Below are positions 7,789 to 47,253 of a stretch of 64,000 nt of DNA, piece by piece; position 1 is the stretch's first letter, and the number at the start of each line of letters is the position of its first letter. The notes beneath the pieces were generated by a model. That model searched no databases, was not told the origin of the DNA, and was given only the letters and a program-made list of their open reading frames with translations. The DNA lies in contig CANQIB010000004.1 of NCBI GenBank assembly GCA_947623915.1, positions 1 through 64,000 on the forward strand. Direction: 5' to 3'. The stretch is from an uncultured Ruminiclostridium sp. (lineage in GTDB: Bacteria > Bacillota > Clostridia > Oscillospirales > Ruminococcaceae). The translations under genes and the position numbers were made by a program.

Positions 7789-7794
7789 AAAATG

Positions 7795-15246: not shown

Positions 15247-15261
15247 GAAAGGATACGGACG

Positions 15262-16032: not shown

Positions 16033-16049
16033 GCGAAAGGAACACAAAT

Positions 16050-16970: not shown

Positions 16971-17005
16971 ACACAGGCTCTTTAGTGAAACTAAAGAGCC
17001 TGTGT
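16971..17005 (+). terminator. Perfect 16-bp hairpin after pyrD
   Basis: ACACAGGCTCTTTAGT and its exact complement close a 3-base GAA loop, directly after the pyrD stop codon. There is no run of T after it, so termination may be incomplete. It could instead be an RNA-stability structure, with some read-through into the two glycosidase genes, for which I see no separate promoter. Confidence 0.65.
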
Positions 17006-17043
17006 AAGTATAACGAAATCCGATATTATAAAGGAGAATGTTT

Positions 17044-18300: not shown

Positions 18301-18311
18301 AAGGGAAAACT

Positions 18312-33290: not shown

Positions 33291-33698
33291 TCAGTCGCCG
33301 TTCCACAGACCGTAATATTTTAATACCTTTACCATAAATTCCTCAGTCACGCCGAAATGCTCGGCGAGCTGCCACACCTCGGTCATTCCTTCCCTTAGGG
33401 CTTTGCGCAGCGCGCGGGAGGAAACGGTGTTGCGCACCGCCCATTTTTCCGCGCGCAGCTCACATCTGCCGCGAGGTATGACGGGACATTCCGCGTCGTA
33501 AAAGGAGCCTGTGATACAGTGTCCCAGCTCGTGCGCGGTCTTGACCTTGTAGTCGCCGCTGCTTTTGACTTTTCTGCCGTCAATGGCGATTATGCAGCGC
33601 CCGTCGCAGCTTTCGCTGAGCGCTTCTTCTCCGCCGTTGAGCCGCATATCCACTATCGGGATATCGTTTTTTACCGCTATCTTTATCAGCCGATCCAC
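33291..33698 (-). CDS. immA: ImmA/IrrE-family metallopeptidase
   Basis: The 135-residue protein contains the zinc-protease motif AHELGHCITGSFY (His56, Glu57, His60). ImmA proteases cleave the neighbouring phage or ICE repressor on an inducing signal such as DNA damage, as ImmA does to ImmR in ICEBs1. Translation starts at GTG after AAAGGGGTGA. It follows the repressor gene by 75 bases on the same strand. That it cleaves this repressor is inferred from position. Confidence 0.88.
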   Translation of the reverse strand: MDRLIKIAVKNDIPIVDMRLNGGEEALSESCDGRCIIAIDGRKVKSSGDYKVKTAHELGHCITGSFYDAECPVIPRGRCELRAEKWAVRNTVSSRALRKALREGMTEVWQLAEHFGVTEEFMVKVLKYYGLWNGD

Positions 33699-33773
33699 TG
33701 TATCACCCCTTTCATAATCATTTTGTTGTCCAAGTGTTTTTGGCTAAAAACGTTTACTTTGATAAAATGACAA

Positions 33774-34112
33774 CTATTTGTTTTCGTCCTTACTGCGGCG
33801 AAGCTCTAAATGCAGCTTTGCCAAGCGTTTTACGTCGTCCAGCACGTCGTCGTCTATCTCGGAATCGCCGAACAGCGCGAACTTCAGCCTGCTGTCGGAA
33901 ACCTTGGAGTTTTCCGCCCCTTTCAGCAGACAGTCGGTATCGGTGCCGAAATACTCCGCCAGCTTGACCAGAGTATCAAAGTCCGGCTCGCGCCGGTCGG
34001 TCTCGTAAAGGCTGTACGCCTGCTTGGTGATTTTAAGATAGTCGGCGACCGCCGCTTGCGACACGCCTTTTTCTTTTCTCAACCGTCTGATATTTTCCGA
34101 AAAAACACTCAT
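33774..34112 (-). CDS. Cro/CI-type repressor of the phage-like cassette
   Basis: The 112-residue protein has an N-terminal helix-turn-helix (ENIRRLRKEKGVSQAAVADYLKITKQAYSLYETDRREPDFDTL across about residues 5-50), followed by a charged C-terminal helix region. The ATG at 34112 is chosen because AGGGAGGG lies 8 bases before it. It faces the late operon across a divergent promoter region that contains repeated TTGACAA sites, so it should repress both directions. The adjacent ImmA-like protease is its likely inactivator. Confidence 0.9.
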   Translation of the reverse strand: MSVFSENIRRLRKEKGVSQAAVADYLKITKQAYSLYETDRREPDFDTLVKLAEYFGTDTDCLLKGAENSKVSDSRLKFALFGDSEIDDDVLDDVKRLAKLHLELRRSKDENK

Positions 34113-34156
34113 AAAAAACACCCTCCCTTGTTTTTTCGTGTTTCGTCTGTATCTTT

Positions 34157-34305
34157 ATTATATTCACATTTCGTTGACTTGTCAATAAATAACAACAAAT
34201 TGTTGCTTAAATTTAGTAAAAAGTAACGAATTTTGAAAATTTATAAACAAACTGTTGACAAATCGAGCGAAATGTGGTATTATTAAGACAACGAAAGGTT
34301 GACAA
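34157..34305. promoter_or_regulatory. Divergent promoters and operators of the phage-like cassette
   Basis: Leftward: TTGACA (34180-34185) and TATAAT (34157-34162). Rightward: TTGACA (34255-34260) and TATTAT (34278-34283). Both have 17-base spacers. The two promoters share extended sequence, TTGACAA, then TC, then CGAAATGTG between the boxes, as if one operator were duplicated on both strands. TTGAC-TT-GTCAA at 34174-34185 is a perfect palindrome. A third TTGACAA copy lies at 34299-34305, just after the rightward start. Binding by the repressor is inferred. The remaining stretch to 34449 is a leader without a recognised gene. Confidence 0.75.
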
Positions 34306-34449
34306 AACTGTCCGAAATTCCGACCATGCCGTGACCTTTAAGGGTGCTGCATGGGATATTATATCGGACGGCTTGTACGATAGAACGTACAGAGCCTTTC
34401 GCTGACGGTTTTGCGCGCGGCGGAGCGCTTAAAGGAAAGGAGAGGGAGA

Positions 34450-34629
34450 ATGTACAGGTGCGTAGTGTGCAAAAGAAGAATGGCGGCGTCACAGGTCGCC
34501 GAGGGGTTTGAGTATCGAGGGGAATGGTGCGGCAGACCCGCATACGAGCCGACTGCGGTATGTCCGTACTGCGGCGAAGCGGTGGAGAGAGATGACCTGA
34601 CGGTCGGTGACGGATTTGGTGAAGGTTAA
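34450..34629 (+). CDS. Small zinc-ribbon-like protein
   Basis: The 59-residue protein has two CxxC pairs, YRCVVCKRRM at the start and VCPYCGEAVE near residue 40, as in zinc ribbons. Between them is a short tryptophan-containing stretch. The ATG at 34450 follows AAAGGAGAGGG. It is the first gene of the rightward phage operon and overlaps the terminase small subunit gene by 23 bases. Its function is unknown; the position suggests a packaging or regulatory role. Confidence 0.7.
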   Translation: MYRCVVCKRRMAASQVAEGFEYRGEWCGRPAYEPTAVCPYCGEAVERDDLTVGDGFGEG

Positions 34630-35053
34630 GTATACCGAGTGGCTGACCGAGGAGGCGCTGGAAAAGCTGAAAACGGCGTCCCTGTCGGGAATGAGCAGAA
34701 CACAGATAGCGAAGATGATGGGCGTACAGCCCAGAACGCTCAAGCGGTGGGAGAGCAAATTCCCGCAGATAAGGGAAGCGGCGGGGGCTGCCAAGACGGT
34801 GCGCGACCCCGTGGAGCGCGCGCTTTTAAAGCGGGCGGTGGGCTACACGGCTACCGAGGTCACGCGGCAGCGCAACGACAAGACCGGCGAATTTGAAACG
34901 GTGAAGATAGTTGAAAAGCAGGTCATGCCCAGTACGACGGCGCAGATATTCTGGCTGAAGAACAAATGCGGCTGCGAGTGGGAGGAAAAGCCCACCGAAA
35001 CGGGCGGCGGCGTGGTGGTGCTGCCGGAGCTGCTGGACGACGAGGAGGGGTAG
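34607..35053 (+). CDS. terS: Terminase small subunit
   Basis: The 148-residue protein has an N-terminal helix-turn-helix (GMSRTQIAKMMGVQPRTLKRWESKFPQI) and a helical middle, and ends in an acidic tail (LPELLDDEEG), as small terminase subunits do. It would recognise DNA for packaging. Translation probably starts at GTG 34607, inside the preceding gene, although the ribosome site is weak and a TTG a few codons later cannot be excluded. The large subunit starts one base after its stop codon. Confidence 0.83.
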   Translation: MTDLVKVKYTEWLTEEALEKLKTASLSGMSRTQIAKMMGVQPRTLKRWESKFPQIREAAGAAKTVRDPVERALLKRAVGYTATEVTRQRNDKTGEFETVKIVEKQVMPSTTAQIFWLKNKCGCEWEEKPTETGGGVVVLPELLDDEEG

Positions 35054-35054
35054 A

Positions 35055-36503
35055 ATGACCGTCGGGAAAGGAGAAAAGGTATTTTGGCGGCCGCAGGAGC
35101 GGCAAAGGCTGTTCATGCAGCGTCCCGAATACGAGGCGCTGTACGGCGGCGCGGCGGGAGGCGGGAAGTCCGACGCGCTGTTGGCGGAGGCTTTGCGGCA
35201 GGTCAAAATACCGCACTATCGCGGGCTTATCCTGCGAAAGACCTACCCGCAGCTTTCGGAGCTTATCGACCGTTCAAGGGAAATGTACGGCGCGGCGTTC
35301 CCCTCGGCGAAGTACAACGACACCAAGCATTGCTGGCAGTTTGAGTCGGGGGCGAAGATATTTTTCGGAGCGATGCAGTACACCAAGGACCGCACAGCTT
35401 ATCAGGGAAAGCGGTATGATTTTATCGGCTTTGACGAGCTGACGCACTTTTCGTGGGAGGAATACAGCTATATGTTTTCCCGCAACCGTCCCGGAGGGGA
35501 GGGAACGCGGGTATACATACGCGCTACCGCCAATCCCGGCGGGATAGGTCACGGATGGGTAAAGCAGCGTTTCATCACGGCGGCTGAGCCCATGACTCCC
35601 GTCAAGACGGAATACCGTGTGTATAAGCCGAACGGGGAAGCGGTAAAGCTGACGCGCTCCCGCATATTCATACCGGCGAGCGTTTTCGACAACGGGATAT
35701 TGCTCAAAAACGACCCTGAGTATCTTGCGGCGCTCGCCATGCTGCCGGAGGCGGAGAAAAAGGCGCTGCTGTACGGCGACTGGGACAGCTTTTCGGGGCA
35801 GGTGTTTACCGAGTGGACGGACGATCCGCAGCATTATCTCGACAGAAGATACACGCACGTTATCGCCCCGTTTGAGATACCGAGGGACTGGACAGTGGTA
35901 AGAGGCTTTGACTTCGGCTACGCCAAGCCGTTTTCGGTAGGGTGGTACGCGGCGGATCCGAGAGGCTGTCTGTACCGCATACGGGAATATTACGGCTGCA
36001 CCGACGCGCCCAACACGGGAATAAAGATAAACCCCGCGGAGATAGCCGCGAACATAAGGCGGATAGAGGCGGAGGACGAAAATCTGCGGGGGCGGGAGAT
36101 ATGCGGGGTGGCGGACCCGTCGATATTTGACCGTTCCCGCGGGGAGAGCGTTGCGGATATAATGGCGGCGGCTCCGAACTTTATCCTGTGGAGCAAGGGA
36201 GATAACACCCGTATAGCGGGGAAAATGCAGTATCACTACCGACTGAGATTTGACGGGGAGGGGCTGCCTATGTTTTACTGTTTCAACACTTGCAGGGAGT
36301 TTATCAGGACCGTGCCGGCGCTGGTGTACGACGACGCGCGGCCCGAAGACATCGACACCGCGCAGGAGGACCATATTTACGACGAATGCAGGTATGTGCT
36401 GATGGAGCGACCGATAACGCCGCATAAAAAGCCGACGGTGCGTATCGACTATGACGACCCGCTCAGCGAAATGAGGGACGGGCGGGATATTTACCGATTT
36501 TGA
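35055..36503 (+). CDS. terL: Terminase large subunit
   Basis: The 482-residue packaging motor has an N-terminal ATPase with Walker A GGAAGGGKSD (Lys38) and Walker B FIGFDELTHFSWEE (Asp127, Glu128). The ATN motif is in IRATANPGGIGH. The C-terminal RNase H-like nuclease starts with VVRGFDFGYAKPFSVGWY (Asp286) and continues with a GVADPSIFDRS strand. All catalytic residues seem present, so it should pump and cut DNA. AAAGGAGAAAAGG is just inside the gene start and the intergenic gap is one base, so it is translationally coupled to terS. Confidence 0.95.
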   Translation: MTVGKGEKVFWRPQERQRLFMQRPEYEALYGGAAGGGKSDALLAEALRQVKIPHYRGLILRKTYPQLSELIDRSREMYGAAFPSAKYNDTKHCWQFESGAKIFFGAMQYTKDRTAYQGKRYDFIGFDELTHFSWEEYSYMFSRNRPGGEGTRVYIRATANPGGIGHGWVKQRFITAAEPMTPVKTEYRVYKPNGEAVKLTRSRIFIPASVFDNGILLKNDPEYLAALAMLPEAEKKALLYGDWDSFSGQVFTEWTDDPQHYLDRRYTHVIAPFEIPRDWTVVRGFDFGYAKPFSVGWYAADPRGCLYRIREYYGCTDAPNTGIKINPAEIAANIRRIEAEDENLRGREICGVADPSIFDRSRGESVADIMAAAPNFILWSKGDNTRIAGKMQYHYRLRFDGEGLPMFYCFNTCREFIRTVPALVYDDARPEDIDTAQEDHIYDECRYVLMERPITPHKKPTVRIDYDDPLSEMRDGRDIYRF

Positions 36504-36560
36504 AAGGAGATAAGGCTTACCTGAATATGCCCTAACGGCTTGGGTAAGCGAACTGTGAAA
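36502..36560 (+). promoter_or_regulatory. Ribosome site separated from the portal start by a hairpin
   Basis: The only good ribosome site before the portal gene, AAAGGAG around 36503-36509, is some 50 bases from the ATG. Between them GCTTACC (36515-36521) pairs with GGTAAGC (36543-36549), with an inner GCC/GGC. If folded, the hairpin brings the site to within about 16 bases of the ATG. The same arrangement is seen before carB. Confidence 0.45.
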
Positions 36561-38182
36561 TGAACGACAAAAACAAGAGAAAAGGCGAGCCGGACATAGA
36601 CCGCGCCGCCGAGATACTAAAGCGCTACAAGGCGGGAAAGGCAAATCTGGAAAAGCGGATAATCTCCAACGAACAATGGTGGAAGATGCGGCATTGGAAC
36701 GAGATCCCGCGTGACGAGTACGACACGGGGCGGCCGCGTCCCGTATCGGCGTGGCTGTTCAATTCCATAGCGAACAAGCACGCGGACGCCATGGATAATT
36801 TTCCCGAACCGTCGGTATTGCCGAGGGAGGAGGACGACCGCGAATGTGCGGAGAAACTGTCCAAGATACTGCCCGCCGTTTTGGAAAGGTGCGATTACGA
36901 GCGGCTGTACAGCGATATGTGGTGGTACAAGCTGAAGAACGGGAGCTGCTGTCAGGCGGTGCTGTGGGATCCCGAGCTTGAAAACGGAAAGGGCGACATC
37001 AGCATACGGAACATCGACATACTCAATCTTTTCTGGGAGCCGGGGGTAAAGGACATACAGCAAAGTCCGAACCTGTTTTACGTCAGCCTGTGCGACAACG
37101 ACATACTGACGGGGAAGTATCCCGAACTGGAAGGAAAGCTGGGGGACAGCGGACTGCTGGCGGGATACAAATACGACGACAGCGTTGACAACAGCGGAAA
37201 AAGCGCGGTGGTGGACTGGTACTACAAGAAATACCGCGGCGGGGAAAAGCAGCTGCACTACTGCCGATTCGTAGGGGATACGCTGCTGTATTCCAGCGAG
37301 GAGGACGAAAGCTGCGAACACGGATTTTACGCGCACGGGCAGTACCCGTTCGTCATCGACCCGCTGTTTTGCGTGGAGGGCTCGCCCTGCGGATTCGGCT
37401 ACATAGACATCATGAGAGATGCGCAAATGTACATCGACAGGCTCGGTCAGATACTTTTGGAGCATACCGTCAGCATGGGGCGCAAGCGCTTTTTCATCAA
37501 GAACAACAGCGCGGTAAAGGAAGAGGAGTTTGCCGATTGGCGCAGACCGTTCGTCCATGTGGCGGGGAACATCGGCGACGACGATATACGAGAGATAAGG
37601 ATAGACCCGTTGGATTCCGCCGTGATACCCGCGCTGAACATGAAGATAGAGGAGCTTAAAGAAACGAGCGGGAACCGTGATTTTTCGCAGGGAGGAACCT
37701 CCAACGGAGTTACCGCCGCGAGCGCGATAGCGGCGTTACAGGAGGCGGGCAGCAAGCTGTCGAGGGATATGCTCAAAAGCTCCTACAACGCGTTCAGAAA
37801 GGTATGCTATCTTGTGATAGAGCTTATCAGGGAGTTTTACGATACGCCGCGCAGCTTCAGGATAAGCGGCGGGTTTGCCGATATAGACAGAAGTCTGATA
37901 GAGGGAAAGCCGGTGACGGCGTTCGGCATGAGCTTTGGCGAAAAAAAGCCTATCTTCGATATAGTTTGTGCGGCGTCGAAGAAATCGCCGTTTTCAAAGG
38001 CGGCGCAAAACGAGCTTGCCAAGGAGCTGTTCTCGCTGGGATTTTTCAACCCGTCGCTGAGCGCGCAGGCGCTCGCGTGTCTGGATATGATGGATTTTGA
38101 GGGCAAGGAGAGCATGGAGAAAATGATAGCGGAAAATGCCGCTCGCGCGGCTGCCGCGGAAAGAGGAGGAGAGATGATATGA
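36560..38182 (+). CDS. Portal protein
   Basis: The 540-residue protein lies between terL and the protease-scaffold gene, the standard portal position. It has the features of podovirus-style portals: an N-terminal KRIISNEQWWKMRHWNE stretch, VSAWLFNSIANKHADAMDNFPEPSVLPREEDD, a mid-domain MRDAQMYIDRLGQILLEH and a C-terminal GVTAASAIAALQEAG...RDMLKSSYNAF helix. The portal forms the dodecameric ring through which DNA enters the capsid. The stop overlaps the next start by 4 bases. Confidence 0.9.
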   Translation: MNDKNKRKGEPDIDRAAEILKRYKAGKANLEKRIISNEQWWKMRHWNEIPRDEYDTGRPRPVSAWLFNSIANKHADAMDNFPEPSVLPREEDDRECAEKLSKILPAVLERCDYERLYSDMWWYKLKNGSCCQAVLWDPELENGKGDISIRNIDILNLFWEPGVKDIQQSPNLFYVSLCDNDILTGKYPELEGKLGDSGLLAGYKYDDSVDNSGKSAVVDWYYKKYRGGEKQLHYCRFVGDTLLYSSEEDESCEHGFYAHGQYPFVIDPLFCVEGSPCGFGYIDIMRDAQMYIDRLGQILLEHTVSMGRKRFFIKNNSAVKEEEFADWRRPFVHVAGNIGDDDIREIRIDPLDSAVIPALNMKIEELKETSGNRDFSQGGTSNGVTAASAIAALQEAGSKLSRDMLKSSYNAFRKVCYLVIELIREFYDTPRSFRISGGFADIDRSLIEGKPVTAFGMSFGEKKPIFDIVCAASKKSPFSKAAQNELAKELFSLGFFNPSLSAQALACLDMMDFEGKESMEKMIAENAARAAAAERGGEMI

Positions 38183-39120
38183 CCGTCGTCAGCTTAAAGA
38201 AAACGACGCTCGGAAGAAGTCTGTGCATAGACGGTCACGCCGACCGCACCGACGACGCGGTAAAGGGAAACCTTGTCTGCGCGGCTTTGAGCATAATAGC
38301 GCAGACCATGGCGGAAAATCTGATGAACGCCGAGGACGAGGGGAAAGCGGATATAATAACGCTGGATCTAAGGAGCGGGAGAGCGGAGATAGAGTATATC
38401 ACCGACGACGAAGAGGTCAACGCGGCGTTTGACGCGTTGGTAACGGGGATTGAGCTGCTGGCGGACAGATTTCCGGAAACGGTGGAGTTTGACTCCGAGG
38501 ACGGCGGATATATCCAAAGCGGGCTGGATCTGTGCAGATTTGACGGAGAGGAAGCCGAACCCGCGCCGGAGGTTTCCGCCGAGCAGCCCGCTCAAACGGA
38601 CGCGCAGCGTTTTAACGCAAGGGTGCGCGAGATAAGGCAGCGCGGTCAGCTCCGCCAAAGCCGTATACTTGACGCCGCCGCGAGAAGATACGGCGTAAAA
38701 AGCGGCGACCTTGACGCGCTGGAGCAGGCGATGAGCCGAGAGGAGGAAAGCAGAGAGCCGAAAAGGCTGATGGAGGAATGGAAAAAGCAGGAGCAGACGG
38801 CGAAGGAGTTTTATCCGCAGCTTGACCTCGGCGAGGAGCTGAAAAACAGGAGCTTTTTCGAGATGCTCTACAGGGGGATAGATCTGCGCACCGCATACGA
38901 GATAGTTCACCGTGACGAGCTGCTCGAAGCCGCCATGCGGTACGCGGCAAAGACCGTCCGAGAAATGACGGCGGAGGAATTGCTGTCGAGGAAAGAAAGG
39001 GTACGCGAAAGCGCGCTGAGCGAAAGCGACAGGGTAAGGGAAAAGCCCGCCGCCCTTACCAAAAAGCAGCGCAGCGAGCTTATCAAGCGTGCCGAGCGCG
39101 GAGAGCGGATAAAGCTGTGA
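38179..39120 (+). CDS. Prp-like cysteine protease fused to a scaffold-like domain
   Basis: The 313-residue protein joins two parts. Residues 1-115 resemble the ribosomal-processing cysteine protease Prp family: IDGHADRTDDAVKGNLVCAALSIIAQT places His20 and Cys34 like the catalytic pair of S. aureus Prp. An acidic linker follows (about 116-140). The remaining 170 residues are helical, highly charged and rich in Glu, Arg and Gln, ending in a basic tail (KKQRSELIKRAERGERIKL), as in phage scaffolds. It lies between portal and capsid genes, where capsid proteases and scaffolds are encoded. I infer a scaffold that cleaves itself or the capsid during maturation. Confidence 0.8.
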   Translation: MTVVSLKKTTLGRSLCIDGHADRTDDAVKGNLVCAALSIIAQTMAENLMNAEDEGKADIITLDLRSGRAEIEYITDDEEVNAAFDALVTGIELLADRFPETVEFDSEDGGYIQSGLDLCRFDGEEAEPAPEVSAEQPAQTDAQRFNARVREIRQRGQLRQSRILDAAARRYGVKSGDLDALEQAMSREEESREPKRLMEEWKKQEQTAKEFYPQLDLGEELKNRSFFEMLYRGIDLRTAYEIVHRDELLEAAMRYAAKTVREMTAEELLSRKERVRESALSESDRVREKPAALTKKQRSELIKRAERGERIKL

Positions 39121-39178
39121 GCCGTTTCGCCGACGCAAAACCGTTAAAACGAAAGTTATTTGAAGAAAGGAAAAAACC

Positions 39179-40180
39179 ATGAAAATTAAAGTATGTCTTG
39201 ATCAGTTTGACGAACCGTTTACCGCGGTACAGACCACGGGTCTGCTTACCGACGAAATGAAGACCTTTTACGAAAGCACGCTTATCGACGTTGCCGAGCC
39301 TAAGCTGGTGCATGACCGATTTGCCGACAAATATCCCATACCCAAGAACAACGGCAAGTCGATAGAGTTCAGAAAATACAGCCCGCTGGCTAAAGCGACT
39401 CAGGCGCTTACCGAGGGTGTAACTCCCAAAGGGAACAGCCTTTCGGTATCCACCGTCACCGCGACGGTAGACCAGTACGGCGACTACATCAGGCTTTCCG
39501 ATATGCTGGAGCTGTCGGCGATAGACAACAACGTCGTACAGTCCACCAAGCTGCTCGGCGGGCAGGCGGGAAGAACGCTGGACACCGTGACAAGAGAGGT
39601 GATAAACGCCGGCACTAACGTGCTTTATGCTCCCAAGGAGGACGGCACGGAGGTAAAGAGCAGAAAGACGCTTACCTCCGACTGCAAGCTGACGGTAGAT
39701 ACCGTATTCAAGGCCGCCGCCGCTTTGGAGGCGATGAATGCCGAGGGTGTAGACGGCGAAAGCTATGTGGCGATAATACACCCGTATGTGGCGTACGACC
39801 TTATGAGGAGCGCCGAGTGGGTGGACGTACATAAGTATGCCGAGCCGGACAACATTTTTAAGGGAGAGATCGGCTGTATCGGAAACGTAAGGTTTGTGAA
39901 ATCCACCGAGGCTAAGATATTCAAGGACGACACCTGTCCCGAAGGACTGGCGGTATTTTCCACGCTGGTCATAGGAGCGCACGCCTATGCCGTGACCGAC
40001 ATAAACGGCGGAGGCCTGCAGCATATAATCAAGCAGCTCGGATACGGCGACGATCCGCTCAATCAGCGTTCCAGCGTGGGCTGGAAAGCGGTAAAGACGG
40101 CGAAGATACTTTCCGACGAATATCTGGTGAGAATAGAAAGCTGCTCACCCGAATATTCCGATAAAGTAAACGCCAACTGA
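39179..40180 (+). CDS. Major capsid protein, N4-gp56-like
   Basis: The 333-residue protein resembles the N4-gp56 capsid family: TGLLTDEMKTFYESTLIDVAEP at the start, GKSIEFRKYSPLAKATQALTEG near residue 60, a VDQYGDYIRLSDMLEL stretch, VAIIHPYVAYDLMRS and a GWKAVKTAKILSDEYLVRIE end. It should form the HK97-fold shell. It has a good ribosome site (GAAAGGAA) and follows the protease-scaffold gene by 58 bases. A hairpin just downstream may stabilise or limit its transcript. Confidence 0.92.
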   Translation: MKIKVCLDQFDEPFTAVQTTGLLTDEMKTFYESTLIDVAEPKLVHDRFADKYPIPKNNGKSIEFRKYSPLAKATQALTEGVTPKGNSLSVSTVTATVDQYGDYIRLSDMLELSAIDNNVVQSTKLLGGQAGRTLDTVTREVINAGTNVLYAPKEDGTEVKSRKTLTSDCKLTVDTVFKAAAALEAMNAEGVDGESYVAIIHPYVAYDLMRSAEWVDVHKYAEPDNIFKGEIGCIGNVRFVKSTEAKIFKDDTCPEGLAVFSTLVIGAHAYAVTDINGGGLQHIIKQLGYGDDPLNQRSSVGWKAVKTAKILSDEYLVRIESCSPEYSDKVNAN

Positions 40181-40195
40181 TAAATGTCTTGCGGG

Positions 40196-40218
40196 GGCGT
40201 GCCGTTAAGCGGCACGCC
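40196..40218 (+). terminator. Hairpin after the capsid gene
   Basis: GGCGTGCCG with CGGCACGCC around a 5-base loop, 16 bases past the capsid stop. There is no T-run. It probably protects or attenuates the transcript so that capsid protein is made in excess. Confidence 0.5.
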
Positions 40219-40244
40219 TTGGCAAAACGGAAACGGAGGAAAAG

Positions 40245-40496
40245 ATGATGGAACGCAATACCGACGCGCTTGACCGGCTCGTGCCGGTAAAGCTGTTTAA
40301 GGACAACGAAAGATATACCGACGACGTGTTCGTTTCGGTGAACGGCAGCACATTCCAGATACAGCGAGGGGTAGAGGTCATGGTGCCGATGTATGTAAAG
40401 CTGGAGCTTGACCGTTCCGAAAAACAGAGAAAGGCGGCTGAATACTATTGCAGCGAGGGCTGGAAAGAATCGCTGATAGTGCAGCAGGGGAAATGA
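40245..40496 (+). CDS. Small phage structural protein
   Basis: The 83-residue protein reads KLFKDNERYTDDVFVSVNG then TFQIQRGVEVMVPMYVKLELDRSEKQRKAAEYY. Short proteins of this shape follow capsid genes in many phages of Clostridia. The function is unknown; a capsid decoration or minor head role is possible from position. A GGAGGAAAAG site precedes a double ATG (40245 and 40248), and either could be used. Confidence 0.75.
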   Translation: MMERNTDALDRLVPVKLFKDNERYTDDVFVSVNGSTFQIQRGVEVMVPMYVKLELDRSEKQRKAAEYYCSEGWKESLIVQQGK

Positions 40497-40497
40497 C

Positions 40498-40866
40498 ATG
40501 ACGGTAAAGCAGGCAATAGACATTGCGGACGCGGTAAAGCCGAACCAGTACAAAAGAGAGATAAAAGTCGAGTGGGTAAAGAACGCGGAGCGCAGGATAT
40601 ATAACGAGATATACTCAAATCACGAGTCGGGGGAGGTCCGTTTTGTTCCGCCGGACGAAAACAGCGGAGAGGACACCGAGCTTTTTGCGCCGCCGCCTTA
40701 CGACGAGCTTTATCCTTTATATATCGAGGCGCAGATAGACGCCGCGAACGCGGAATACGGCAGATACAACAACAGCGTTAGGCGGTTCGAGGCGGTGTAC
40801 GGCGACTTTGAAAAATTCTGGCAGTCGGGTCATATGCCCAGTCCGCTGAATTTAATGAAATACTAG
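40498..40866 (+). CDS. Head-tail adaptor (gp4-like head completion protein)
   Basis: The 122-residue mostly helical protein contains NAERRIYNEIYSNHE and PPPYDELYPLYIEAQIDAANAEYGRYNNS, a layout seen in portal-bound adaptor proteins. It sits one base after the previous gene and would bind under the portal ring to close the head. The stop is TAG and is in the same frame as the next gene, whose start lies only 3 bases later. Confidence 0.75.
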   Translation: MTVKQAIDIADAVKPNQYKREIKVEWVKNAERRIYNEIYSNHESGEVRFVPPDENSGEDTELFAPPPYDELYPLYIEAQIDAANAEYGRYNNSVRRFEAVYGDFEKFWQSGHMPSPLNLMKY

Positions 40867-40869
40867 GGG

Positions 40870-42636
40870 GTGGGCGATATATTCCCTTATTTAAGCGATG
40901 TAAGAACAAAGGAAAGGTATTCCGTCAAATTCGGCGGGATAAACCGTTCGGACGGCACGCCGCTCGGCGAGTGGGAGGAGCTGTGCAACATGGACTTTTC
41001 GCACTATCCCGCATTGTCCAGCTCCCGCCCAAAGGGGTATAACGTTGTCGAGTCGGAGATGACCGGCTGCGTTTACAAAAACGGGGTCTTACAGTACACC
41101 GTGCCGGACGGCATATACATAGACGGGACGAAGTACCCGCTTACCCTGTCGGAGGGGGAAAAAAGACTTGTCTGCATGGGCGCGTATATAGTGATACTTC
41201 CCGATTTTATCGTCTGCAACACCGCGGGAGATACCCCCGAATTCAACGACGCGGCTTCTCCCGCGGCGGCGCTTACGGGAACGCTCACCGAGGTGAACCG
41301 CGACTGGACGGTGATAGACACCAAGGAAAGCACCAAGGACAAGCTGCTTTATCTTACGGTATCGGCGGAGGATCCCGCTTTGGAAAAGTACGCGATAGGA
41401 GATAAGGTGCTGGCGGAATGGGTGCATGACGGAAAGCAAAAAAGCGCGTACATGACGATACAGAGCATACTGAAAGAGGGCGACGCCACCTGGGTTAGCA
41501 AGGGAAACGTCGCGGTACATTTTGAGACCGACCTGTCCTTTCCCGATATAGATTATTTTTATCTTGAGGACGCGCCGCAGTCCGGCATACGGTTTTCTGT
41601 GGGAAAGCCTAACTCAACGGTAAGAAAGTACATACCTAAGGATATGGATTTCGTCATCGAACACAACAACCGGCTGTGGGGCTGTTCCTCAAAAAATCAC
41701 GAGATATACTGTTCTAAGCTGGGGGATCCCACCTGCTGGGGAGATTTTCAGGGCATATCCACCGACTCCTGGGCGGTGACGGTGGGCAGCGACGGAGATT
41801 TTACCGGCGCGGCGGTCTATAACGGAAAGGTTTTGTTTTTCAAGGAGGACTGTCTGCACACCGTATACGGTACTAAAGCGTCTAACTTTACGCTTTCCAC
41901 GGTAAAGCTGAGGGGTGTAAAGAAAGGCTGTCACGATTCTCTGTGCATATCCAACGGACTGCTGTATTATAAAGCGCCGGAGGGGATATTCGTGTACAAC
42001 GGCACGACCTCTCAAAAGGCGGACGCGCGGCTGGGGGAGGATATAACGCTCACCGCCGCCGCCTGCGCCGACGACAGAAAGATATATATGCTGACTTCTG
42101 ACGGAGCGGCAAAGGTATACGACTGCGTGCATGGCTGTTGGAGCACGGAAACGGCGGTCGGCGCAAAGCGGGGCTTTAACGTGAACGGCTGCCTTTACGC
42201 GTTGTGCAAAGACGAAAACGGTATGCGTACGGTGCTTTTGTCGGGGAACGAGAGCATGGCGTTTTGTGAGAACGAGGTAAAGTTTTATGCGCAAACCGGC
42301 TGGCTCAACAGCGAAAGCTCGGTAATGAGCTGTTTTTCAAAAATAAAGCTGGCGGTCGGGCTTATCGGCGACCCCGAAAAAACAAAGTTTCGGGTGCTGG
42401 TCAAATACAGCGACGGCGAGGAGTGGACGACCGCATACAGCTTTAACGGGAAGCTCATCACGCGGGAGGGCGGGATATTCACCGTCCCGATAATCCCGAT
42501 GAGGGCGCACCGAATAAAGCTGCGGATAGAGGGCAGCACCTCGCACGACAGCAAGGAAAGCGTACACGCGGGATTTTTGCTGTACGGGTTGTATCTGAGC
42601 ATAGAGGAGGGAACGGAAATTGGCGGTGAACATTGA
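40870..42636 (+). CDS. Tail or DNA-stabilisation protein (gp10-like)
   Basis: The 588-residue beta-rich protein starts near FGGINRSDGTPLGEWEELCNMDFSHYPALSS and carries repeated propeller-like blades, for example VIEHNNRLWGCSSKNHEIYCSKLGDPTCW and AVTVGSDGDFTGAAVYNGKVLFFKEDCLHTVYG. This resembles podovirus packaged-DNA stabilisation/tail proteins of the P22 gp10 type and relatives in Clostridia phages. The apparent start is GTG at 40870, only 3 bases after the upstream TAG and too close to AGGGGG for normal spacing. Translation probably restarts there after termination. Its end overlaps the fibre gene by 17 bases. Confidence 0.8.
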   Translation: MGDIFPYLSDVRTKERYSVKFGGINRSDGTPLGEWEELCNMDFSHYPALSSSRPKGYNVVESEMTGCVYKNGVLQYTVPDGIYIDGTKYPLTLSEGEKRLVCMGAYIVILPDFIVCNTAGDTPEFNDAASPAAALTGTLTEVNRDWTVIDTKESTKDKLLYLTVSAEDPALEKYAIGDKVLAEWVHDGKQKSAYMTIQSILKEGDATWVSKGNVAVHFETDLSFPDIDYFYLEDAPQSGIRFSVGKPNSTVRKYIPKDMDFVIEHNNRLWGCSSKNHEIYCSKLGDPTCWGDFQGISTDSWAVTVGSDGDFTGAAVYNGKVLFFKEDCLHTVYGTKASNFTLSTVKLRGVKKGCHDSLCISNGLLYYKAPEGIFVYNGTTSQKADARLGEDITLTAAACADDRKIYMLTSDGAAKVYDCVHGCWSTETAVGAKRGFNVNGCLYALCKDENGMRTVLLSGNESMAFCENEVKFYAQTGWLNSESSVMSCFSKIKLAVGLIGDPEKTKFRVLVKYSDGEEWTTAYSFNGKLITREGGIFTVPIIPMRAHRIKLRIEGSTSHDSKESVHAGFLLYGLYLSIEEGTEIGGEH

Positions 42637-44674
42637 TATGTCGTTTGTCCCCGACAAGAACGCTCCGACCTTAAAAAGACTGTCCGACGCGGAGGACGCG
42701 CTTTCGCTGCTTGCGGAGCGCACCGAGTTTTGCTTTGATAATACGGAGATAAAGGACAGCGCGGAGGAGATAAAAAAGCTGGACAAAAAGCTGAACGCGG
42801 TCTCAAACGGCGGCGTCGGCAAATTTGCGAACGAGGAGAAGAACAGCGAGATATTCAACGACTATACCTCCAACACCGCAACGGGTCCCATGCACCATGT
42901 CGAGGGCGCGGCGAACCGCATTACGGGCGGCACGGTAAACCATGCCGAGGGCAGCGGCAACGAAATTTCCGGCACGTTCAGCCACGCCGAAAACTCCGGC
43001 AATAAAATAATAAACGGCGCGTCCAACGCTCACGCCGAGGGCACGGGAAACACCGTCACCAACAGCGCAAGCAACGCCCATGTCGAGGGCACGGGAAACA
43101 CCGTCACCGACGGCGCAGGCAACGCCCACGTCGAGGGGATAGGCAATAAAACTACCGGCGGCGCGATAAACCATTCCGAGGGGTACAACAATACCGTTAC
43201 CGGCGTGCAGTACACTCACGCGGAGGGCAGCGGCAATACCGCCGAGGGCGGAAGCTGCCAGCATATCGAGGGGCAAAACAACGCCGTGAAAAACGGTTCG
43301 ACTGTCGCTCACGCCGAGGGGTCGGGCAACGTCATAACCGACGGCTGCTCGAACTGTCACGCCGAGGGAGTGGGCAATAACATATCCTCGTCCGCCGCCT
43401 GCTGCCATGCCGAGGGCAACACCAACGTCATAACCTACGGCAGCTCCGGCGCCGCGAGCAACGTTCATATCGAGGGGTACGGCAATACCGTTCGCGGCGG
43501 CACGGCAAACCACGCGGAGGGCGTCGGCAACGAGGTGACCGGCAAGTACAGCCACGCCGAGGGGCAGAGAAACACCGTCACGGGTAGCGATACCGTGCAT
43601 ATCGAGGGCATATCGAACAGCTCCGACGGCGGCTGCTCCTACTGTCATATCGAGGGCTCGGGCAATTCGGTAAAACAGGGGAGCTGCTGGCATGTGTCGG
43701 GACACGGCAACGAGGTCGAGTGCAAGTCGGGCGACAGCATGGGCGGAACGGTGTCGGGTCAGGACAACACGGTCAGCGGCTCGTTTGAAAGCGTTTCCGG
43801 CATGAGCAACAGCGTTTCCGGCACGGCAAACGCGGTAAGCGGCTCGTTTAACAACGTGAGCGGACAGCAGCATATCGTAGGCGGCTCTCAAAACGTCTGC
43901 GACGGGAGTTATTCGCTTGTGGCGGGGCTGGACAACAATGTTTCGGCTGACGGCTCGGTCGTCGGCGGAATACACGGGACGCTTAGCGGAGAGCATAACG
44001 TTTTAAACGGCATATACAACACCGCCGAGAATGTGAAAGAAAGCATAGTCACGGGCAGCTACAACGACCTGTCGGAGGCGGAAAACGCCGCAGTGCACGG
44101 CGGGTTTAACACGGTATCGGGAGCGGCGGACGGCTCGGCGGTCATAGGCTGGCAAAATAAGCTGACGGACGCCTCCTGCACGTTCGTTGCGGGGCAGTAC
44201 AACGAGGTAAGCGGGAATCGGTCTTTTGTCGCGGGAGATCACAACATCTCAAGCCATGAGAACACCGCAGTTTTCGGGCAGTTCAACGAGGACACCGACG
44301 CGGCGTTTGCGGTAGGCACGGGAAGCTACGACAGCCGTAAAAACGGAATGGAGCTTGACAGGCAGGGAAACCTTACTCTTGAGGGAAAGCTGTACGCCTC
44401 GGCGGATATCGCGTCGGGGACGGTTTCGGTCGGGGGAGAACCTTTGCCGGCGGTCGATCGGCGCACGAAAGCCGAGGTCATGATATGGCGCAACAGCGCT
44501 GCGGACGGCGGCAGCTTTTTTGAGTGCGCGGACGCGGATATCACCGAGCCGAAAGATACGGTGCTGTATTCCTGCGAGAGCGGCTCGGTAACGCTCATCG
44601 TGACCGACGGCGGAGAGCTTTCGATAAGCTCGGATATGGACGGGGTAAAGTACAGGATAACATATTACAATTAA
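42620..44674 (+). CDS. Repeat-rich fibre or spike protein
   Basis: The 684-residue protein starts at TTG after GAGGAGG. Following about 85 residues of attachment region, it has some 17 tandem units of about 14-18 residues built on H(A/V/I)EGxGNxVxxG (for example HAEGSGNEISG, HVEGTGNTVTDG, HIEGYGNTVRGG). These are followed by VSGxxNxVSG units and a distinct C-terminal domain of about 100 residues. The pattern matches the left-handed beta-roll of YadA-like adhesin heads, so a trimeric receptor-binding fibre is likely. An exact 24-base segment repeats 48 bases apart (43037 and 43085), a sign of recent unit duplication. Confidence 0.85.
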   Translation: MAVNIDMSFVPDKNAPTLKRLSDAEDALSLLAERTEFCFDNTEIKDSAEEIKKLDKKLNAVSNGGVGKFANEEKNSEIFNDYTSNTATGPMHHVEGAANRITGGTVNHAEGSGNEISGTFSHAENSGNKIINGASNAHAEGTGNTVTNSASNAHVEGTGNTVTDGAGNAHVEGIGNKTTGGAINHSEGYNNTVTGVQYTHAEGSGNTAEGGSCQHIEGQNNAVKNGSTVAHAEGSGNVITDGCSNCHAEGVGNNISSSAACCHAEGNTNVITYGSSGAASNVHIEGYGNTVRGGTANHAEGVGNEVTGKYSHAEGQRNTVTGSDTVHIEGISNSSDGGCSYCHIEGSGNSVKQGSCWHVSGHGNEVECKSGDSMGGTVSGQDNTVSGSFESVSGMSNSVSGTANAVSGSFNNVSGQQHIVGGSQNVCDGSYSLVAGLDNNVSADGSVVGGIHGTLSGEHNVLNGIYNTAENVKESIVTGSYNDLSEAENAAVHGGFNTVSGAADGSAVIGWQNKLTDASCTFVAGQYNEVSGNRSFVAGDHNISSHENTAVFGQFNEDTDAAFAVGTGSYDSRKNGMELDRQGNLTLEGKLYASADIASGTVSVGGEPLPAVDRRTKAEVMIWRNSAADGGSFFECADADITEPKDTVLYSCESGSVTLIVTDGGELSISSDMDGVKYRITYYN

Positions 44675-44686
44675 AAGGAGGAAGAG

Positions 44687-45706
44687 ATGGCGCAAAAGAA
44701 AAAGGACATCGCACAAAGCCTTACGGAGCAACAAAAGAGCAAGCCTGCCGATTATACCGGCGGATACGCCGATAAGATACGGCAGACCATGGACAGCATA
44801 ATCGACCGCCAGCCGTTCAGCTATGATGTGAACGCGGACAAGCTGTACCGTCAGTACAGGGACAATTACACCGCGCTCGGCGAAAGGGCGATGAAGGATA
44901 CCGTCGGAAACGCCGCGCTGCTCACGGGAGGATACGGCAACAGCTACGGAGTGACCGCGGGTCAGCAGGCGTACAACAGTTATATGCAGCAGCTCAACGA
45001 GGTCGTCCCGCAGCTTGAGCAGCAGGCGTACGAACGCTGGCTCAACGAGGGCGAGGAGTTATATGACCGTCTGAAAGCGCTGCAGGGGGCGGACAACACC
45101 GAATACGACAGGTATCGCGACAAAGTGAGCGATTACTACAACGACAGAGATTATGAGCGCAGCGTATACGAAAGTGACAGGGACTACAACTACAAAAAGC
45201 AGCAGGACGCGCTGGAGCAGGCGTATCGGGAAAAGCAGTTCGAGCGGGAAGTGTACGAAAACGACCGAGATTATCAGCGTAAGGTGTACGAAAGCGACCG
45301 CAAATATATGAACGACAGCCTTGCGCAGGCGGTGAACAGTGAGAAAACGGAGCAGAACACGGAGTTTTCTCCCGCCGAGGCTTACGAGTTTTTGGACAAG
45401 TATTCCGACGTGATATATTCCGACAGCGAGCTTGTCGAGTCGATGTACCGAATGTTCGGCGATAAAAACGGATTTTTCGAGTGGCTCAGCGCGGTGCAGG
45501 TATCGGGAGGAGATACGGGACTTGACGTTTTGTATCGGCTGCACCCCGAACTTGCGGACGATGATTTCAAAAGAGAGGACGCGTTCAATACGGCGAAGAA
45601 AGCGATGAACGCAAGTATGCAGCTGCTTAAAGACAACAAGTACAATATAATCACCGCGGGTCTTCGTCAAAAGGCGATCGAATCGGCGAAAGGACGGCAA
45701 AAATAA
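44687..45706 (+). CDS. Phage internal or tail-associated protein with coiled-coil repeats
   Basis: The 339-residue protein has a conserved-looking block, MKDTVGNAALLTGGYGNSYG followed by AGQQAYNSYMQQLNEVVPQLEQQAYERW (about residues 75-125), which I associate with structural proteins of Firmicutes phages. After it come several copies of a VYESDRDY motif spaced through a Gln/Glu/Lys-rich helix (about 150-205). A globular C-terminus ends the protein. A particle-internal or ejected role is plausible; no enzyme motif is seen. AAAAGGAGGAAGAG precedes the ATG. Confidence 0.7.
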   Translation: MAQKKKDIAQSLTEQQKSKPADYTGGYADKIRQTMDSIIDRQPFSYDVNADKLYRQYRDNYTALGERAMKDTVGNAALLTGGYGNSYGVTAGQQAYNSYMQQLNEVVPQLEQQAYERWLNEGEELYDRLKALQGADNTEYDRYRDKVSDYYNDRDYERSVYESDRDYNYKKQQDALEQAYREKQFEREVYENDRDYQRKVYESDRKYMNDSLAQAVNSEKTEQNTEFSPAEAYEFLDKYSDVIYSDSELVESMYRMFGDKNGFFEWLSAVQVSGGDTGLDVLYRLHPELADDDFKREDAFNTAKKAMNASMQLLKDNKYNIITAGLRQKAIESAKGRQK

Positions 45707-46116
45707 TGACAAAAGCACAGGCGCTTATAGACGGCGCGGCTGCCGCTGTGGGAGCGGTCGTCGGATTTCTTTTCGGGGAAGCCGGCGGTATGCTGTATGT
45801 ACTTACGGCGTTTATGGCGATGGATTACGTCACGGGAGTTGCGGCGGCGGCGGTGAACCGCGAGCTTTCCAGCAAGACGGGCTTTAAGGGACTGGCAAGA
45901 AAGCTGCTGATACTGGTGTTTACCGCGATGGGACACATCATCGACAGCGCGCTGCCGGGCGGAGCGCAGACGGTCATGTCGGCGGTCATGCTGTTTTACA
46001 TAGTAAACGAGGGGATAAGCATAACCGAAAACGCCGCCGTGCTGGGTCTGCCGATACCCGCAAAGCTCAAAGAGGTGCTGAGTCAGCTCAAGGAAAAGCA
46101 GGACGAAAGGAGATAA
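45706..46116 (+). CDS. Phage holin
   Basis: The 136-residue membrane protein has about three or four hydrophobic segments: AAAAVGAVVGFLFGEAG, MLYVLTAFMAMDYVTGVAAAA, a middle helix and MSAVMLFYIVNEGISITENAA. It ends in a charged tail (KEVLSQLKEKQDERR). The MDYVTGVAAAAVNRELSS and FYIVNEGISITENAA segments are hallmarks of the phi29/Cph1-type toxin-secretion holin family. It would permeabilise the membrane for the lysin encoded 3 bases downstream. Its start overlaps the previous stop. Confidence 0.93.
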   Translation: MTKAQALIDGAAAAVGAVVGFLFGEAGGMLYVLTAFMAMDYVTGVAAAAVNRELSSKTGFKGLARKLLILVFTAMGHIIDSALPGGAQTVMSAVMLFYIVNEGISITENAAVLGLPIPAKLKEVLSQLKEKQDERR

Positions 46117-46119
46117 ACG

Positions 46120-47184
46120 GTGGCATTTTTAAAAGGGGTAGATCTTAGTTACTGCCAAAAGGGTTTTGACTATAAGGCGGCAAAGGAAAAGGGAGTCAGC
46201 TTTGCCATAATACGGGCGGGCTTTTCCGAGGTCACGGACAGCCGGCTTGAGGAGCATATCGAGGGCTGCGAAAAAAACGGCATAGATTACGGATTTTACT
46301 GGTATTCCTACGCAATGAGCGTGGAGGAGGCGAAACGGGAGGCTGCCGCCTGCCTCAGAGCGATAGCGGGCCGCAGACCGAGTTATCCTGTATTTTACGA
46401 TATGGAGGAGGGCGACCAGTCGGGAAAGCTGAGCCGCGAGACCGTCACCGATATGGCGCTGGCGTTTTGCAAAGCCGTAAACGACGGCGGCTATCCCTGC
46501 GGTATCTATGCAAATCCGAGCTGGCTGCAAAACGTTTACGACAGCTCCCGTATCGTCGGAAAGTACGATATATGGCTTGCGCATTGGACGAACAGCCCGA
46601 ACAGTCCCTCAAAATACGATTACGGGCAGACCGTATGGCAATGGGGGATAGACTGTATAAACGGCATGGACGTAGACGGAAATATATGCTTTACCGATTA
46701 TCCTACGGCGGTTTCGATGTGGTACGAGGAACACGGCGTACAGCAGGAGAGCAAAGCCGATGAGCCTGTCCCCGCATACAAAAGAGGGGATAACGTCATG
46801 CTGGCGAAAGGCGCGAAATTCGTCGGCGGAGTTACTCCGTACAGCTGGGTGTACGATACGGTGTTTACCGTATACGCAACGGCGGCGCAGGGCAGCGAGC
46901 TTATGATAGGTCTGGGCGGAGAGGTCACGGGCTGGATATATTCGGCTGACGCGGTAAGTCCGCCCTGCCGCACGGCGGAGAAAAAGAAGTTTTCGACGGG
47001 CGACAGAGTTACGGTAAAACGCGGAGCGCTCACCTGTAAGGGAGAAAAGCTGGCGAGCTTCGTTTACGATAACGTTTATACCGTTTTGCAGGCGGGAACG
47101 AACAAAGACCCCGATTACACGGTGATCGGGGTGGACGGTAAAGTTACCGCGGCGGTATCCGCAAGCGACCTTGAACCCGCCTGA
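46120..47184 (+). CDS. GH25 endolysin
   Basis: The 354-residue protein starts with GTG after AAGGAGATAAAC. Residues 1-200 are a GH25 muramidase: KGVDLSYCQKGFDYKAAKEKG, SFAIIRAGFSE, FYWYSYAMS and VFYDMEEGDQ, with the catalytic Asp-Glu pair. The C-terminal part holds two related domains of about 60 residues (RGDNVMLAKGAKFVGGVTPY... and TGDRVTVKRGALTCKGEKLA...), probably SH3-like wall-binding repeats. It would cut the peptidoglycan glycan backbone at lysis. It has no signal peptide, in agreement with a holin partner. Confidence 0.94.
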   Translation: MAFLKGVDLSYCQKGFDYKAAKEKGVSFAIIRAGFSEVTDSRLEEHIEGCEKNGIDYGFYWYSYAMSVEEAKREAAACLRAIAGRRPSYPVFYDMEEGDQSGKLSRETVTDMALAFCKAVNDGGYPCGIYANPSWLQNVYDSSRIVGKYDIWLAHWTNSPNSPSKYDYGQTVWQWGIDCINGMDVDGNICFTDYPTAVSMWYEEHGVQQESKADEPVPAYKRGDNVMLAKGAKFVGGVTPYSWVYDTVFTVYATAAQGSELMIGLGGEVTGWIYSADAVSPPCRTAEKKKFSTGDRVTVKRGALTCKGEKLASFVYDNVYTVLQAGTNKDPDYTVIGVDGKVTAAVSASDLEPA

Positions 47185-47214
47185 CGGGGATATTCCGAGG
47201 GGAAATAAAAAAGT

Positions 47215-47253
47215 AAAACAGCACAAGCGGTGTAATGCTGCTTGTGCTGTTTT
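47215..47253 (+). terminator. Terminator closing the phage late operon
   Basis: A 14-bp stem (AAAACAGCACAAGC with its complement at 47240-47253) ends in TTTT. It is symmetric enough to serve the convergent EamA gene as well. Confidence 0.87.

Follow-up and report, generated by a model that had tools for sequence, protein, structure and literature searches.

A podovirus-derived, probably host-domesticated gene-transfer-agent-like cassette in a subclade of Ruminiclostridium

Whether a set of phage particle genes under repressor control belongs to a virus or to its bacterial host is the question raised by a locus in a gut bacterium, an uncultured Ruminiclostridium sp. (Ruminococcaceae). The stretch analyzed, hereafter the window, comprises positions 1 to 64,000 of contig CANQIB010000004.1 (GenBank assembly GCA_947623915.1). 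A preliminary description of the window placed at 33291 to 47253 a module of ∼14 kb, with a repressor and an ImmA-type protease on one side and a rightward terminase-to-lysin unit on the other, and proposed three options: a domesticated DNA-packaging particle, a capsid-forming satellite, or a recently trimmed prophage. All the named genes are present with open frames, and the start at 33291 holds; the end is the stop of the GH25 endolysin gene, at 47184. This element, here called the cassette (33291 to 47184, ∼14 kb), comprises a divergent repressor/ImmA pair and a single rightward gene run (34411 to 47184) and holds a complete tailed-phage operon for head, packaging, tail, and lysis, with the tail genes partly assigned by position.

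Gene transfer agents (GTAs) are known from few lineages. The features of the cassette make it quite likely that it is a host-domesticated, mainly vertically inherited, podovirus-derived, GTA-like particle cluster. Inheritance with the host across its species, an apparent wiring to DNA damage, and the lack of any gene found for self-copying or insertion together make it probable that the cassette is a tamed virus by which bacterial DNA is packed. Among the three options proposed at the outset, the domesticated DNA-packaging particle is favored because of coinheritance with a host clade, purifying selection, the lack of any broken copy among 165, and the promoter/operator layout.

Distribution, selection, and descent

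The survey covered 71 genomes of the genus, including that of the window. Some helix-turn-helix (HTH) repressor is matched in 69 of them, and only genomes with at least 64% identity were counted as carriers: orthologs of the cassette repressor, 64 to 92% identical, occur in 14 further genomes, the next best match being 42%, which gives 15 carriers among the 71. The capsid protein matched 15 genomes, one of which (G040, 31% identity with stops) was dropped, leaving 14; it is above background in 13 of the 14 other carriers, the exception being G025. The same 15 genomes are those in which RnfC is at least 76% identical to that of the window; other genomes with a match reach at most 60%, save for partial matches in three genomes, which span fewer than 130 residues and reach up to 70%, and 8 of the 71 have no match. 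They are also the 15 best MetH matches (at least 68%; next full-length match, at most 65%). Because the set of carriers coincides with both the RnfC set and the top MetH set, the cassette marks one host subclade. It is found in every member of the subclade examined (15 of 15), in G025 only in fragments, with immA, the repressor gene, and the small terminase (TerS) gene at a contig end and the holin and lysin genes on another contig of this 83% complete assembly.

All of the gene copies found, 165 of 165, remain open across ≥90% of their aligned length. The test comprised 13 genes in 15 genomes, leaving out the scaffold and the zinc-ribbon open reading frame (ORF); 30 of the 195 gene-by-genome cells were not found, owing to contig ends or divergence. 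Seven stop signs occur in the cassette alignments: three in the nozzle and two in the zinc-ribbon alignments lie within three residues of the alignment end, and the remaining two, in scaffold alignments, fall at the boundary where protease and scaffold are separate frames. The widespread frameshifts in relatives that, by the preliminary description, would have refuted its proposal were not seen. The ratio of nonsynonymous to synonymous changes (dN/dS), obtained from Nei-Gojobori counts over nine genome pairs, is 0.088 to 0.182 for cassette totals and 0.039 to 0.113 for host genes. For the capsid and the large terminase (TerL), the two genes singled out earlier for this check, it is 0.011 to 0.086 and 0.015 to 0.107, respectively. 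The cassette evolves under purifying selection, as is expected of a GTA.

To compare descent, a host tree was built from RnfC, RnfD, MetH, the 50608 ORF, and MetF and a cassette tree from ImmA, the repressor, TerL, portal, capsid, and a 588-residue protein. Both contain the clades G028/G104/G039/G106, G019/(G026/(G031/G014)), and G018/G000/G009/(G035/G030). Protein differences in the cassette follow those in the host, with Mantel r values of 0.69 to 0.94 (12 genes, 10 to 15 genomes; 0 of 2,000 permutations reach the value in each case). Apart from the two supported conflicts considered below, the trees differ at weak host forks, namely, in the order inside the G104 group and in the place of G025, which covers 11% of the cassette columns. 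In trees that include phage relatives (FastTree, midpoint rooted; 140 TerL, 114 portal, and 80 capsid rows, the TerL set being what was left after 28 duplicate rows and rows of ≤330 aligned residues were dropped), the cassettes group together with support of 0.995 for TerL, 1.0 for portal, and 0.949 for capsid. All three clades include one noncassette row, a 7-kb IMG/VR contig adjacent to G026; a second outside row, in the TerL clade only, is the TerL of a prophage in G031. Coevolution with the host and vertical inheritance, which mark GTAs, are found here with caveats arising from synonymous distances, two tree conflicts, and differing loci. IMG/VR contig L021 carries the TerL of genome G028, an example of how viral databases can list host-owned cassettes as viruses.

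The flanks of the cassette in the window are host genes, named by sequence reading: on the left the rnf operon (rnfC, 31753 to 33048) and on the right an EamA-like transporter gene and metH (from 47281). The expectation that relatives carry the cassette at this same locus was borne out in part: rnfC is the left neighbor in five genomes (G000, G009, G030, G035, and G025), and metH or a CAP-domain gene lies on the right in several, whereas G018 and the G028 group carry the cassette elsewhere. On the right side, metH follows directly in G009, via a CAP-domain gene in G019, and via the EamA-like gene in the window. A member of the CAP-domain gene cluster (Pfam-tested in G014 only) is also found 3′ of the lysin gene in G014, G028, G031, and G106, with metH 12 to 13 kb beyond it in G014 and G031. 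The simplest reading is that the ancestral position of the cassette was near metH and was later disturbed by rearrangements.

Gene content and control region

The genes of the cassette, identified from ORFs and PHROG and Pfam profile matches and open throughout in the window, are as follows.

33291 to 33698, minus strand: ImmA/IrrE-type metalloprotease (HELGH), presumed antirepressor; PF06114, 31.9 bits, and phrog_87; in 15 of 15 carriers
33774 to 34121, minus strand: ImmR/CI-type HTH_3 repressor; PF01381, 59.9 bits
34411 to 34629, plus strand: zinc-ribbon-like small protein with CxxC pairs; phrog_27517; Pfam zinc ribbons all below cutoff
34607 to 35053, plus strand: TerS with N-terminal HTH-like region; phrog_309, 7e-34
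35055 to 36503, plus strand: TerL; PF03237 (Terminase_6N) and phrog_979
36560 to 38182, plus strand: portal, P22-like; PF16510, 73 bits, and phrog_156, 4.5e-81
38179 to 39120, plus strand: Prp-type head protease fused to a scaffold-like region; PF04327, phrog_4478, and phrog_13908
39179 to 40180, plus strand: major capsid protein; phrog_1357, 1.3e-90
40245 to 40496, plus strand: conserved small structural protein; phrog_15239; detected in 13 of 15 carriers
40498 to 40866, plus strand: head-tail adaptor candidate, by its place between capsid and tail genes; phrog_12105 (unknown function)
40870 to 42636, plus strand: tail nozzle/DNA-stabilization candidate, 588 amino acids, putative function; phrog_511 ("internal virion protein"), 9e-46
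42620 to 44674, plus strand: tail fiber candidate with beta-roll repeats; PF21300 (LbR_Ice_bind) and phrog_25468
44687 to 45706, plus strand: internal/ejection protein candidate, coil-rich, 339 amino acids, by position only; found in 10 of 15 carriers
45706 to 46116, plus strand: holin; PF05105 (Phage_holin_4_1), 132 bits
46120 to 47184, plus strand: GH25 endolysin; PF01183, 85 bits, and phrog_291

The key motifs, described from the outset as intact, are so: the TerL GGAAGGGKS, FDEL, and acidic residues are invariant in a 15-row alignment, the metalloprotease retains HELGH, and the endolysin matches the GH25 profile. TerS scores 24.5 bits against HTH_23, just under the cutoff of 24.6; the HTH-like pattern is kept across the 15 rows but its sequence varies, and the C-terminal part is near-invariant. 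Protease and scaffold form a single frame in the window and two frames in many relatives. The fiber gene diverges fastest, with 37 to 45% identity in 7 of the 14 other carriers, those with a detected copy, compared with 66 to 92% for the capsid in 13; it consists of repeat units of ∼41 to 48 nucleotides (LbR-type beta-roll), and the contigs of several relatives break within it. The 339-residue coil-rich protein has no family match in PHROG and Pfam searches. For the nozzle candidate, the predicted structure was too poor to be used (pLDDT 48), and a PDB profile search with its alignment gave 0 matches; PDB searches likewise gave 0 matches for the portal and a single weak match for the capsid (9d82; E value, 0.00018). 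That these frames arose by chance is ruled out by the profile matches and dN/dS.

The preliminary description saw no integrase, polymerase, primase, or helicase, and the profile searches agree. In the cassette, no integrase, primase, polymerase, or helicase was matched (PHROG and Pfam profiles); none of the 10 PF00589 matches in the genome of the window lies on its contig, C4; and no tyrosine integrase of the types present in that genome occurs in the cassette flanks of relatives that were read, several of which are short or missing, with serine recombinases outside all of these searches. The two integrase matches in the stretches searched belong to a prophage (G009:C23) and to the G035 metH contig, which is without the cassette. 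No direct repeat of ≥14 nucleotides pairs the two ends of the cassette, in keeping with the reported lack of att repeats, although shorter or imperfect att sites could escape this search. No sheath, tube, or baseplate family indicative of a contractile or long tail was matched in the cassette (PHROG and Pfam). Among TerL-bearing loci in IMG/VR and the genomes, a tyrosine integrase is present in at least 14 of 158, often 3 to 4 kb upstream of TerL; this count is a floor because many of the loci are short.

The following elements were recognized between the repressor gene and the particle genes.

34157 to 34185, minus strand: promoter towards repressor/immA, TTGACA-17-TATAAT; matching site in 14 of 15 cassettes
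34193 to 34205, no strand assigned: operator-like palindrome CAACAAATTGTTG; the 64-kb window has a single other exact CAAC-N5-GTTG site
34245 to 34257, no strand assigned: operator-like repeat AAACAAACTGTTG; overlaps the −35 element of the particle promoter
34255 to 34283, plus strand: particle-operon promoter, TTGACA-17-TATTAT; matching site in 14 of 15 cassettes (not G028, by pattern)
34289 to 34301, no strand assigned: operator-like palindrome CAACGAAAGGTTG; just 3′ of the −10 element of the particle promoter
34375 to 34392, plus strand: SOS-type box candidate GTACGATAGAACGTACAG, GTAC-N8-GTAC; between the particle promoter and the zinc-ribbon ORF

This divergent promoter/operator layout would fit direct repression of the particle genes by the repressor, as had been proposed. 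Each of the 15 control regions has 3 to 5 CAAC-N5-GTTG sites with at most one mismatch, of which 1 to 5 are exact. Both exact sites of the 64-kb window fall in the control region; two sites are no exceptional number, being reached in 15 of 100 shuffles, and it is their position and conservation that are notable.

The GTAC-N8-GTAC box or a close variant is found in 15 of 15 cassettes, and the full TGTAC-N8-GTACA form is found in 4. It is the top site of the window (29.6; next, 13.4) by a matrix built from sites including this one. When one mismatch is allowed, the counts for the box pattern and for its reversed control are 12 and 3 in G000, 2 and 5 in G009, 11 and 2 in G018, 5 and 2 in G035, and 6 and 1 in G030. 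These 36 matches in five genomes comprise 5 in cassettes, 20 others that were read, and 11 unread. Of the nine exact matches, five belong to cassettes; the others lie upstream of recA (one, genome of the window), by cas3 (one, G035), and upstream of cas5 (two, G035 and G030, the G030 gene being named by likeness). Boxes with one mismatch precede recA in G009 and G018, and another such box, in G018, adjoins a dinB-like gene, the polymerase product of which scores below the NCBIfam cutoffs. Eleven of the 20 matches read are intergenic: three at recA, one at the dinB-like gene, three at cas genes, and four others, before a macrodomain/RelA-like gene (one), lipoprotein gene copies (two), and a ddl-like gene (one), the last two by eye. 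The other nine lie inside frames or in a CRISPR-like array. Because it is also found upstream of recA (in G000, G009, and G018), a dinB-like gene, and cas genes, the candidate is probably an SOS-type box. The boxes that adjoin the start of a type I-C-like cas3 (G035) and lie upstream of cas5 (G035, and the like gene of G030; L387:1658, L388:1706, and L391:1669) hint at control of CRISPR-Cas in common with recA and the cassette.

Proposed function, known systems, and rival explanations

ICEBs1 carries an HTH repressor and metalloprotease (ImmR/ImmA) pair next to divergent promoters. The ICEBs1-like switch of the cassette adjoins a particle operon, without conjugation genes, and by analogy the following course can be proposed. 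In unstressed cells, ImmR would occupy the CAAC-N5-GTTG repeats around the particle promoter, while an SOS-type repressor would sit on the GTAC-N8-GTAC site downstream of it. Upon DNA damage, the SOS-type repressor would leave and ImmA, as in the ICEBs1 model, would remove ImmR, whereupon the particle operon would be transcribed in a fraction of the cells. TerS and TerL would then pack host DNA into heads, as no means of self-amplification is known for the cassette, and the holin and GH25 endolysin would lyse the producer, releasing short-tailed particles. These would most likely deliver DNA to kin, the fast-changing fiber setting the recipients. Since TerS keeps an HTH-like region, packaging may start at preferred sites rather than at random. 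If DNA is transferred in this way, the cassette would offer part of the explanation for how genes move within anaerobic communities of the gut and rumen and for the retention of a lethal particle operon.

Among known GTAs, RcGTA has a structural cluster of ∼14 kb without integrase and is siphovirus-like, with scattered loci and CtrA/GafA control. The cassette is similar in size and likewise lacks an integrase match, whereas it is podovirus-like and forms one operon with ImmR/ImmA and an SOS-type box. Alphaproteobacterial GTAs are mostly inherited vertically (PMC10883770), and GTAs of the Rhodogtaviriformidae type coevolve with their hosts (PMC9662315). The closest published system is FpGTA of Faecalibacterium prausnitzii, which, by its description (PMC12946183, Nat Commun 2026), is probably podovirus-like, packages fragments of 8.4 to 8.9 kb, and is, by its authors' account of January 2026, the first podovirus-type GTA reported. 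FpGTA resembles the cassette in its gut Clostridia host, short-tailed particle genes, TerS/TerL/portal/scaffold/capsid set, holin and endolysin, and lack of replication genes, and its operon I is found in all 12 Faecalibacterium genomes that its authors examined (PMC12946183). It differs in having two separate operons (10.5 and 5.5 kb), whereas the cassette has one with its own ImmR/ImmA and SOS-type box; in a TerS without an obvious DNA-binding domain, whereas that of the cassette keeps an HTH-like region; and in that the main text never uses the word "repressor," whereas the cassette encodes one (PMC12946183). On account of its single operon, own switch, and HTH-bearing TerS, the cassette is not filed as FpGTA; it is set apart by the description of FpGTA, not by sequence comparison. 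As far as sequence tells, the cassette works like a GTA, and it would then be a second, separate podovirus-type GTA-like case, with a whole control region, codescent over 15 species, and a testable DNA-damage wire. Among the matches listed from open-licence papers, no title or abstract opening reports this cassette.

A 4.1-kb contig of a Faecalibacterium metagenome-assembled genome (G110:C127; L402) encodes a TerL 68% and a portal 51% identical to those of the cassette; the other TerL in this genome is 36% identical. An HTH repressor gene and a promoter-like pair are also on the contig, as is a short TerS-like ORF in which no HTH is evident by eye. It resembles the published FpGTA I and is a possible homolog of it.

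Several observations weigh against the domesticated, GTA-like interpretation. The cassette is known here from its genes alone, from which we infer packaging and transfer, and its TerS keeps the HTH-like region, unlike those of RcGTA and FpGTA. In G025, TerL and capsid were not found, in an assembly that is 83% complete. The loci differ: G018 and the G028 group have the cassette elsewhere, the latter sharing a different left flank, and the metH neighborhood of G030 and G035 is without it, while the right flanks are unseen for G013, G026, G030, and G035 and end at or near the lysin gene for G039 and G104. The two trees conflict with support at two points: they differ as to which of G000 and G009 lies closer to G035/G030 (support, 98 for the host and 97 for the cassette), and G013, placed with the G019 set by the host tree (97), stands by itself on a long branch in the cassette tree. 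Synonymous distances in the cassette are 0.95 to 1.24 times those of the host for three pairs in the subgroup of the window and 1.3 to 2.8 times for six other pairs, many of them near saturation. Because cassette distances exceed those of the host, allele exchange is likely; the cassette would be mainly vertically inherited, with descent that is not strictly vertical and some exchange between related cassettes or phages. Low carbon content is a published GTA signature, and it is clearly lower here only for TerL (P = 0.00013; portal, 0.17; capsid, 0.054). As for the box, the reversed control outnumbers the pattern in G009 (5 versus 2), recA was not located in G030 and G035, and LexA_DNA_bind (PF01726) was not found in the genome of the window, with weak matches only in 3 of 9 genomes. 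Given RecA and an SOS-type box without a canonical LexA DNA-binding domain found, the carriers may use an unusual LexA.

The main rival is a killing particle similar to PBSX of Bacillus subtilis, a domesticated, repressor-controlled, damage-inducible prophage-like particle cluster with a long contractile tail, in place of which the cassette has podovirus-type tail genes. PBSX does not inject DNA, according to the FpGTA report (PMC12946183). A domesticated particle of this kind would pack host DNA or nothing useful and kill competitors, with the fiber setting the targets. The fiber, which diverges far faster than the capsid, and the retained lysis genes would suit such a role, vertical inheritance fits it equally well, and the authors of FpGTA raise the same alternative for their system (PMC12946183). 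However, no contractile or long-tail gene was matched, so that the defining feature of PBSX is not seen and a podovirus tail would need an unusual killing route; moreover, purifying selection acts strongly on the head and packaging genes, TerL among them, which a killing device would need less. We consider this explanation unlikely. An active phage lineage confined to the clade, integrating via host recombinases or an unrecognized serine recombinase encoded elsewhere, would make phage and host trees look alike; the differing loci, the synonymous distances of up to 2.8 times those of the host, the two supported tree conflicts, and the place of serine recombinases outside the searches would accord with it. 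Its size of ∼14 kb, with no replication genes found, the left neighbor common to five species, and its presence in every clade member examined make the cassette very unlikely to be such a phage.

The integrase, att sites, and replication genes of a functional temperate prophage were not found, serine recombinases and short att sites being outside that test, and a recently trimmed prophage, the last of the options proposed at the outset, is contradicted by the clade-wide age and intactness of the cassette and by the lack of decay. An old defective prophage could instead have been kept, for example, for superinfection immunity conferred by its repressor, with the structural genes as passengers. 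Retention of the repressor and ImmA in all 15 carriers, the related temperate phages residing in the same hosts (G031:C42 and G009:C23), and the case of G025, in which nothing beyond TerS and the control and lysis ends was found, could be read in this way; passengers would decay, though, whereas most structural genes have dN/dS near or below 0.1 to 0.2 and 165 of 165 copies are open, and this reading is highly improbable. A capsid-forming satellite dependent on a helper phage for integration and replication is scarcely credible. Small size and coresident related prophages would agree with one, but the cassette descends with the host, its neighbors are common to several species, and the searches matched neither an integrase nor a replication module, unlike in cf-PICI-like satellites, in which capsid genes accompany an integrase and a replication/primase module of their own.

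Related phages and a second lineage

IMG/VR phage contigs of 38 to 41 kb (L031, L051, L053, L056, L067, and L074) encode the same TerL family, 59 to 64% identical, and many related TerL loci also bear the portal and capsid families. L031, L051, and L056 have a tyrosine integrase near TerL, whereas none is found in the cassette, and the G031:C42 prophage encodes RecE, RecT, SSB, DnaD, DnaC, and a helicase, none of which the cassette has. Separate related temperate prophages with replication/recombination genes are present in two carrier genomes (G031:C42 and G009:C23).

In the first of these (L194, G031:C42:30000-49500, 1423 to 19500), an early region encoding a helicase, a methyltransferase, RecE, RecT, RusA, SSB, DnaD, and DnaC is followed by GH25 and then by terS-terL-nozzle-fiber; the contig ends without a portal or capsid match. 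This prophage has a TerL that falls within the cassette clade and a variant of the box at L194:14659. L194 could be a phage recombined with the cassette or even a phage that uses the heads of the cassette. In G009:C23 (L203), relatives of five G031:C42 early genes run to the contig end inside TerL, and a TerL-portal-capsid set that has diverged lies on another contig of this genome, G009:C44 (L205). The cassette and a related temperate phage seem to coexist in G009.

A separate TerL clade in other Clostridia (support, 0.999) has a similar plan. G111, G112, and G114 carry immA and a repressor gene upstream of TerL, in an arrangement that matches the gene order of the cassette, immA ∼1 kb away, with a TGTCC-N8-GGACA-type site between the repressor and TerL; no such site was seen in G113, another member of this clade. 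A podovirus-derived GTA family could be widespread in gut and rumen Clostridia, with more than one origin from the same phage family and one control plan (ImmR/ImmA, divergent operators, and a host SOS box before the particle operon), a generalization that we put forward tentatively, as something less than an even chance. If true, DNA damage would trigger suicidal packaging and chromosomal DNA exchange together with recA, translesion polymerase, and CRISPR-cas. In the loci of this clade (L403/L404, G111:C10; L405, G112:C24; L406, G113:C7; and L408, G114:C11), the repressor gene lies close upstream of terS-terL-portal-capsid, and a cysteine-rich ORF precedes terL in G111 and G114 (by eye). The G111 cassette is flanked by pyrimidine-synthesis genes and chromate/major facilitator superfamily (MFS) transporter genes, and MFS-transporter genes on the right side are common to G111 and G113.

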